From Flavobacteriaceae bacterium PRS1 (GTDB lineage: Bacteria; Bacteroidota; Bacteroidia; Flavobacteriales; Flavobacteriaceae): 64,000 bases of DNA. This document shows positions 29,776-31,563 of the stretch, piece by piece (positions within the stretch are counted from its first letter, which is position 1; each line of letters begins with the position of its first letter). The notes beneath the pieces were generated by a model, which searched no databases, was not told the origin of the DNA, and worked only from the letters and a program-made list of their open reading frames with translations. Where the stretch lies: contig RDRZ01000005.1 of NCBI GenBank assembly GCA_003709165.1, positions 1 through 64,000 of the forward strand, written 5' to 3'. Both the position numbers and the translations under genes were made by a program.

Positions 29776-31563
29776 TTAATAATGAGAAGTTCTGATTACA
29801 GGTTGAAAAAAATCTTTTCTTTTCGCACAAACCATATCAGCTACACAGGAAGAACAAACAGGATCAGTCATTTCTGGACACCTTTTCCTAGACATAAAAA
29901 AGAACCAATCTACTGCACCCATGGATTGACCTGACAAGTTAGGTAACATGTTAACCGCTTTATATATTTCATATCTTACATCCCATTCATCTTGAACCGA
30001 AACTAATTGCCTGCTGTGTAATTTTTGTTTTAAAATTTTGTCTTCAATATCCACTAACCCTAAACGTAAACTTGCTCTCATACAATGGTAGTCTACAACC
30101 GGAGGGAGCATTTCAATATCAGCAAAACGAATAAATTTTTCTGGACGTTGTTCCAAAATTAAAGCAAGTAGCGCACTTTTTTTTCTCAATGGATCTTCTC
30201 TGTAACCACCTATCCTATCTATTAATTCAAAAAATCTTTTTAAAGGAAGTTCCGATTGCTTAACATCGTCAATAATTGATTTAGGTGTCCAACCTAACTC
30301 CAGCATTGTTTTTCCATAAGCTTGTGCCATATCAACATGTAACTGCAATGCAGGCATTACATTAAATCCGTTATCCGATTTAAATAAATTCTCCATTTCT
30401 TCTATGGTTACATTTGCTTGACGTTGTGGTGAAAAAAAATCTGGATCAATGTCTATTTTTTTTAAGTAGGCTTTAAAAAGATAGAATGCTCCTTTTAATT
30501 GTTCTCCTGAAACAGTTTCTATTAACGGTTTGAAGTAACGCTCATTTTTATGCGACCAAAAGCTAAATTGTTGCAATGTTGTTACAAAAAAATAATCTAA
30601 TGTTACGGGATGATTTTTTGGTGGCAAAGTGATGTCATCAATAAAAGGAAAAGAAAATACTTCAGGAGTTTTTGAGATGAGATCTGCAATTTTTTTCAAT
30701 CTCTTATGATTAATACTCACTCTTTTTGTATCAAAATTAATTGTGCTTATATCAATCAATAATTTTTCTGGCCCAATACCTGTCACCATGTTTGAAGCCA
30801 GAAATACACCATGTCTGGCAGCCATTACAGGATGGTGTCCAGAGGCTATTTTTGTAAGCGTAGCTCCACAAAAAGTATCACCTGCGCCAGTTGGGTCTAC
30901 TTGATGAACACGTGGTGAATTGATTGTAGCAACATGTGTCCCTTGGTTAATAATTACGCCGTTTTTACCAGCAGTAATAAAAGTGATTTTTGCATTTAAT
31001 ATCTTATTATCCTTTTCATATTTATTAATCAAATCTGATTCATAATTATTCATAAAAAAAAAATCAACGGCACTTTTTATCTTTATCACTTCATAAGGTT
31101 CATTTTCAGCCATTGGTTTGGCTGTCCCGGCAGAAATTCTTTTTGCACCTCGTTCTCTACAAGCAATTACAAATTTCATTTGTTGTTTTGTACTACCTAA
31201 AGGGACAATATGAACTATATCAAATTCACTTAAATCATCAGGTAAAATAATAGGGTCTAAGTCAGCCTCCGATCCAAAATAAGCTTCTTTATAAATAGTG
31301 TTTGAGTCAGATTGAATAATATGAAAATGAGGAAGTTGTTCTTGCGAAATTGACGGACCTATCCACTTCATCTTCTTTTCAACAAAAGCTAATTTTAAGG
31401 GGATCTCTATTGGTTTTGGAGCAAATAAAGTAACTTCTGCACCTGATTGTATGGCACCTAAAGCAGTATAAAGTCCTGCACCACCAGCTACTTGTTGCGA
31501 AATGTTATTAACATCAATTAGATCTATAGACGGAGATCCTATAATTAAAATAGATGGAGTCAT
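29776..31563 (-). CDS. PfkB-family kinase fused to HhH-GPD/4Fe-4S glycosylase-like domain
   Basis: The 595-aa fusion has two parts. Residues 1-~275 form a ribokinase-like sugar/nucleoside kinase: GGAG at 27-30 and the catalytic motif DPTGAGDTF at 223-231 with base Asp229. Residues ~320-595 resemble an endonuclease III/MutY-type glycosylase: PPVVDYHCMRASLRLGLV at 487-504 corresponds to the VDTHVxRvxxRLGL motif and keeps its catalytic Asp (D491). Four cysteines at 562, 570, 573 and 579 form C-x7-C-x2-C-x5-C, close to the C-x6-C-x2-C-x5-C iron-sulfur loop of that superfamily. A plausible role is salvage or repair of a modified nucleoside, with base release and sugar phosphorylation on one chain. 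That function is inference; a kinase call alone is secure. Confidence 0.8.
   Translation of the reverse strand: MTPSILIIGSPSIDLIDVNNISQQVAGGAGLYTALGAIQSGAEVTLFAPKPIEIPLKLAFVEKKMKWIGPSISQEQLPHFHIIQSDSNTIYKEAYFGSEADLDPIILPDDLSEFDIVHIVPLGSTKQQMKFVIACRERGAKRISAGTAKPMAENEPYEVIKIKSAVDFFFMNNYESDLINKYEKDNKILNAKITFITAGKNGVIINQGTHVATINSPRVHQVDPTGAGDTFCGATLTKIASGHHPVMAARHGVFLASNMVTGIGPEKLLIDISTINFDTKRVSINHKRLKKIADLISKTPEVFSFPFIDDITLPPKNHPVTLDYFFVTTLQQFSFWSHKNERYFKPLIETVSGEQLKGAFYLFKAYLKKIDIDPDFFSPQRQANVTIEEMENLFKSDNGFNVMPALQLHVDMAQAYGKTMLELGWTPKSIIDDVKQSELPLKRFFELIDRIGGYREDPLRKKSALLALILEQRPEKFIRFADIEMLPPVVDYHCMRASLRLGLVDIEDKILKQKLHSRQLVSVQDEWDVRYEIYKAVNMLPNLSGQSMGAVDWFFFMSRKRCPEMTDPVCSSCVADMVCAKRKDFFQPVIRTSHY

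Follow-up and report, generated by a model that had tools for sequence, protein, structure and literature searches.

Qng1 (DUF2419; Pfam Q_salvage, PF10343) is a queuine-releasing glycosidase for which queuosine-5'-monophosphate is the primary substrate and in which D298 and W302 have been named as active-site residues (PMC11592518). Two of its variants appear in the titles of PDB entries, K199C in 7u5a and D231N in 7ulc, the latter complexed with queuosine-5'-monophosphate. In the indirect salvage by QueK and QueL, queuine is freed from queuosine and turned back into preQ1 by QueL (PMC11130926; PMC11570991); the hosts are bacteria that contain TGT and QueA and lack preQ0 synthesis, and QueK and Qng1 come from unrelated protein families. 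The pairing of a kinase with a glycosidase is known from pseudouridine metabolism, where metazoa, amoebozoa and fungi have fusions of the PfkB kinase PsuK to PsuG, the enzyme that splits pseudouridine monophosphate (PMC9247573).

Here, we describe a bacterial gene in which a PfkB nucleoside-kinase-like domain is joined to a Qng1-like glycosidase domain. It lies in DNA from Flavobacteriaceae bacterium PRS1 (GCA_003709165.1, contig RDRZ01000005.1, positions 1 to 64,000 of the forward strand), and this whole stretch of 64,000 nucleotides is referred to as the window. A check of the open reading frames of the window confirmed the gene at 29776-31563 on the minus strand, encoding 595 amino acids. 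Its features are as follows.

29776..31563, minus strand: whole fused gene, 595 amino acids, PfkB nucleoside-kinase-like domain, Qng1-like glycosidase domain and C-terminal Cys loop
30709..31563, minus strand: PfkB/ribokinase-fold kinase domain, residues 1-285 (Pfam PfkB and fold match)
31468..31485, minus strand: PfkB di-glycine motif GGAGLY, residues 27-32, kept in all aligned relatives that bear the domain
30871..30897, minus strand: PfkB motif DPTGAGDTF at residues 223-231; Asp229 is the presumed catalytic residue (alignment)
29896..30708, minus strand: Qng1/DUF2419-like glycosidase domain, residues 286-556 (PF10343, profiles and fold)
30556..30567, minus strand: F-x-F-W motif, residues 333-336, common to canonical Qng1 (alignment)
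30181..30183, minus strand: Lys461, aligned with the Qng1 catalytic-site Lys199 that is mutated in 7u5a
30064..30093, minus strand: DYHCMRASLR, residues 491-500, with Asp491 aligned with the Qng1 Asp231 that is mutated in 7ulc
29908..29910, minus strand: Asp552, aligned with the Qng1 active-site Asp298 (residue role from PMC11592518)
29827..29880, minus strand: Cys loop C562-x7-C570-x2-C573-x5-C579, predicted 4Fe-4S ligands, EndoIII/MutY-like (alignment and weak profile match)
29779..29826, minus strand: conserved tail at the C-terminus, which ends in FQPVIRTSHY; its last residue, Tyr595, is also present in canonical Qng1 (alignment)

The initial annotation, made from the DNA alone, had proposed a fusion of a kinase with an HhH-GPD-like glycosidase carrying a Cys loop, and this architecture was borne out by Pfam, by the fold and by the motifs. 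The motif DPTGAGDTF that it had placed in the N-terminal half is present at residues 223-231, as are, in the C-terminal half, PPVVDYHCMRASLRLGLV (residues 487-504 of the fusion protein) and the C-x7-C-x2-C-x5-C pattern (C562 to C579). With the whole protein as the query, Pfam returned PfkB with an E-value of 6.8e-13 and Q_salvage (PF10343) over residues 317-529 with an E-value of 9.8e-10, both above the Pfam curated cut-offs; the C-terminal part alone matched PF10343 with an E-value of 1.1e-10 and 42 bits against a cut-off of 25, and in some relatives, such as L112, the PF10343 score falls under the cut-off. An AlphaFold2 model of the fusion, built from an alignment of 22 relatives, had a mean pLDDT of 89.5 and a pTM of 0.91, and the separately modelled C-terminal domain a pLDDT of 91.5. 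In the 22 relatives, the di-glycine motif, GAG[DE], K461, D491, H493, R496, R500 and the four Cys residues are invariant or near-invariant. A false open reading frame or chance motifs are ruled out by the conservation of the fusion across phyla.

The N-terminal half has the profile, the GAGD catalytic motif and the di-glycine motif of a PfkB kinase. In a Foldseek search of the PDB, the top match of the kinase domain was the nucleoside kinase from M. jannaschii (2c49), and the first 50 matches also included the nucleoside kinases from C. tepidum (3kd6) and B. thailandensis (BthNK) together with many ribokinases, which suggests a nucleoside as the substrate of the modelled domain. GAGD is intact in the window protein and is found in 17 of 21 aligned fusions, with GAGE in the other four, all from Anaerolineaceae (L009-L012), and N172 and E175 are near-invariant in the alignment. 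One relative, L089 (genome G545), has no kinase and comprises only the glycosidase domain; this protein and the GAGE sequences may reflect decay of the kinase within one lineage.

Judging from sequence profiles and the predicted fold, the nearest known relative of the C-terminal domain is Qng1/DUF2419, followed by EndoIII and MutY. In the PDB fold search, matches 1-11 were all Qng1 entries, with E-values of 1e-9 to 3e-7 and TM-scores of 0.71-0.75, and were followed directly by EndoIII (E-value 8e-4), then by MutY and, lower down, by OGG1 and AGOG. A fold unrelated to HhH-GPD, which the initial annotation had named as the outcome that would speak against it, was thus not what was found. A profile combining the domain with a related stand-alone group retrieved Qng1 structures from the PDB with a best E-value of 3.3e-13, its sole other match being EndoIII, with an E-value of 0.45, exactly across the Cys loop; a profile-profile comparison of the domain with canonical Qng1 gave 2.4e-9. 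The identity to Qng1 over the fold alignment is only about 14-19%. Pfam HhH-GPD was absent from the matches to the fusion protein listed up to an E-value of 10. The resemblance to EndoIII seen in the initial annotation holds for the HhH-GPD-related fold and in part for the Cys loop, whereas EndoIII as the main tie was wrong, and orthology to EndoIII or MutY is rejected since Qng1 ranks first by both sequence and fold.

The fusion shares with Qng1 (PF10343; 7u07, 7u91, 7ulc and 7ugk) the fold, the F-x-F-W motif and the final Tyr, as well as the positions of K199, D231 and D298. In the alignments, K199 and D231 correspond to K461 and D491, which are invariant in all relatives, and D298 corresponds to the invariant D552, while W302 is replaced by F556; catalysis thus looks conserved. 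The base pocket may differ from that of canonical Qng1. The putative pocket residues D69, N72 and H53, which are conserved in canonical Qng1 but are not known as family-defining, are replaced by T329 and Q332, both lying just upstream of the F-x-F-W motif, and by a gap, so that the base may not be queuine. Canonical Qng1 also differs from the fusion in having neither the PfkB domain nor the Cys loop.

The four cysteines of this loop, C562, C570, C573 and C579, are invariant in the 22 aligned relatives and in every complete relative, in line with what the initial annotation had expected of orthologues; the distant stand-alone group, too, has Cys without exception at these four positions, whereas canonical Qng1 lacks them. 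In EndoIII, the cluster loop has the pattern C-x6-C-x2-C-x5-C, from which the C-x7-C-x2-C-x5-C loop of the fusion differs by one residue. The loop comes after the final helix of the common fold, as does the cluster loop of EndoIII and MutY. By analogy with these enzymes, the loop probably holds a structural 4Fe-4S cluster. That the four cysteines instead bind zinc or are redox-active, which would be compatible with the function proposed below, seems unlikely to us: the metal is invisible from sequence and the spacing is one residue off the EndoIII pattern, against which stand the invariance of the cysteines, their EndoIII/MutY-like position and the weak profile match over the loop. The stand-alone group comprises proteins of ~345 amino acids (L087, L090-L098, L118, L127 and L128), is related to the C-terminal domain with a profile E-value of 1.4e-29 and has eight invariant Cys residues near the C-terminus; single members show weak Pfam matches to HhH-GPD, DUF2400 and AGOG.

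We propose that the fusion is a bifunctional salvage enzyme, a nucleoside kinase and nucleotide N-glycosidase, with conversion of queuosine to queuine as the most likely reaction, a proposal that we regard as having about an even chance of being correct. Because the substrate of Qng1 is queuosine-5'-monophosphate, a kinase within the same polypeptide would provide the glycosidase with its substrate, starting from the free nucleoside. The PfkB domain would transfer a phosphate from ATP to the 5'-OH of its substrate, a modified nucleoside that is most likely queuosine, and so yield queuosine-5'-monophosphate, and the Qng1-like domain, through the Lys461/Asp491 pair, would then hydrolyse the N-glycosidic bond to release the base, queuine, and ribose-5-phosphate. 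In most hosts, queuine would first need to be turned into preQ1 by a putative QueL-type lyase, after which a preQ1-type TGT and QueA would rebuild queuosine. PsuK and PsuG offer a parallel in logic, since a PfkB nucleoside kinase yields a 5'-monophosphate that is split by a dedicated glycosidase and natural fusions exist; unlike the glycosidase of the fusion, PsuG is a member of another protein family and acts on a C-C glycosidic bond. The initial annotation had raised two-step processing of a modified nucleoside as a possibility and was right to do so; Qng1 is nearest by HMM, by PDB sequence and by fold. This two-step mechanism is better supported than queuosine as the substrate.

The queuosine genes of the hosts bear on the pathway. 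In 26 host genomes, TGT and QueA were each found in 21, and 24 gave no strong QueC match, the exceptions being G298 and G718; neither TGT nor QueA was found in G529. Every such absence is bounded by genome completeness (84.65% for G000). All 19 main host TGTs that were read have the pocket GGL[A/S]VGE, which we take to be that of a preQ1-type TGT; direct insertion of free queuine by the host TGT is then probably impossible. The hosts can finish queuosine from preQ1 but apparently cannot make preQ0, and the combination of TGT and QueA without QueC fits the indirect route from queuine to preQ1 by QueL; the fusion thus resembles the QueK/QueL system in its proposed pathway position and in its hosts. 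Two controls downgrade the absence of QueC to weak evidence: none of 40 fusion-free genomes from the class to which the Anaerolineaceae-branch host G299 belongs had QueC, and in Neomarinimicrobiota it was found in one of seven fusion hosts versus 21 of 39 fusion-free genomes (p = 0.098, phylogeny ignored). The idea that the fusion stands in for the entire de novo pathway is rejected, as QueA and TGT are present in most hosts. Canonical Qng1 accompanies the fusion in three hosts (G486, G539 and G373), and in the first two (L188 and L189) it adjoins a TGT with the pocket GGSLGK, not GGLxVGE, which might be that expected of a queuine-using TGT. Genomes of the Anaerolineaceae branch that have the fusion or its form without the kinase encode a further TGT, whose pocket reads GGWPLD (L163-L167 in G299, G300, G301, G302 and G545); it was considered as a queuine TGT, and its pocket is unusual and its adjoining genes do not look queuosine-related.

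Several of these observations speak against the proposal: the changes at D69, N72 and H53, the canonical Qng1 of three hosts, the preQ1-type pocket of the main host TGTs, the GAGE motif of Anaerolineaceae and the kinase-less L089. The first two, together with QueA and a preQ1-type TGT in most hosts and the lack of both in G529, also favour a kinase and glycosidase that act in turn on another modified purine or 7-deazapurine nucleoside, in RNA-nucleoside catabolism or detoxification. We consider this a real possibility, if a somewhat doubtful one, because Qng1 is the only characterised family that the domain most resembles, the catalytic Lys and Asp and F-x-F-W are kept, and no conserved neighbouring gene indicates another substrate. 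GAGE and L089 could also mean that the glycosidase alone is active, next to a PfkB-like half that has degenerated as a kinase and merely binds a nucleoside or nucleotide. This appears improbable for the window protein, in which the di-glycine motif and GAGD are both intact, as they are in the 16 other aligned fusions outside Anaerolineaceae. The alignment also has N172 and E175 as near-invariant residues, and the confident kinase model matches active nucleoside kinases.

The fusion could also be an EndoIII/MutY-type DNA base-excision enzyme or a damaged-DNA sensor with an attached kinase, the sensor having been suggested in the initial annotation. The fusion has in common with EndoIII and MutY the fold superfamily, the Asp of a VDxH-like motif and a C-terminal four-Cys loop, these enzymes come next after Qng1 in the fold ranking, the loop weakly matches that of EndoIII, and a cassette with UmuD/UmuC-like and SRAP genes lies nearby in the window. 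Unlike them, the fusion has a kinase, which is nucleoside-kinase-like, lacks a Pfam HhH-GPD match and has an x7-x2-x5 instead of an x6-x2-x5 loop; the E-values of Qng1 are better by several orders of magnitude, and the repair-like neighbours are missing from L005, a near-identical fusion, and are not conserved elsewhere. The damaged-DNA sensor is therefore unsupported, and a role in DNA repair altogether is highly improbable.

Relatives of the fusion come from Chloroflexota (Anaerolineaceae among them), Neomarinimicrobiota and a single proteobacterial MAG; the profile search found it in one of 345 sampled Bacteroidota, the genome of the window itself, and in one of 398 sampled genomes of the proteobacterial phylum. 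The flavobacterial host probably acquired the gene laterally, as suggested by its rarity in Bacteroidota and by the tree, in which the proteobacterial sequence and two from Neomarinimicrobiota form a group with the window protein (100/99). L005 lies in a second Flavobacteriales MAG and is flanked by the same genes, for a 187-amino-acid protein, riboflavin synthase and PdxA, indicating a shared flavobacterial gene context. Between the fusion and riboflavin synthase, the window has at 32210-35793 genes for an Mrr-type restriction endonuclease, a UmuD-like peptidase, a UmuC-like polymerase and an SRAP protein, all missing from the otherwise syntenic L005 and unconserved at the other loci. No gene neighbourhood is conserved across lineages, conservation being limited to close relatives. 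In three related Chloroflexota genomes (L084, L173 and L174), a large open reading frame near the fusion has a 2Fe-2S-like N-terminus and by eye resembles molybdenum hydroxylases. A mobile or viral origin was rejected: there was no relative on a viral contig, no plasmid match, no PADLOC match and no viral fold match with an E-value below 0.001.

In conclusion, the fusion may supply the still-missing 'queuosine kinase': a pathway figure from 2024 shows a possible phosphorylation only by dashed arrows (PMC11130926), and a kinase on the same chain is a direct candidate for the step ahead of Qng1. In the literature covered, no such fusion, no queuosine kinase and no Cys-loop or iron-sulfur Qng1 was found, and an earlier mention elsewhere is possible. 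We tentatively suggest that the fusion is the founder of a clade of bacterial enzymes able to convert queuosine to queuine on their own. These would combine an undescribed queuosine kinase with an iron-sulfur Qng1, replace QueK in indirect salvage and, with the stand-alone Cys-rich group, preserve an ancestral connection of queuine salvage to EndoIII-type DNA glycosylases. The fusion would link queuosine-salvage enzymes with iron-sulfur DNA-repair enzymes; canonical Qng1 lacks the Cys loop that the fusion and the stand-alone group have, a pattern that suggests how an enzyme of nucleotide salvage and the Fe-S DNA-repair glycosylases are related. If the proposal is correct, the fusion gene would be a marker of a queuosine recycling route in bacteria that are known mostly from metagenomes.
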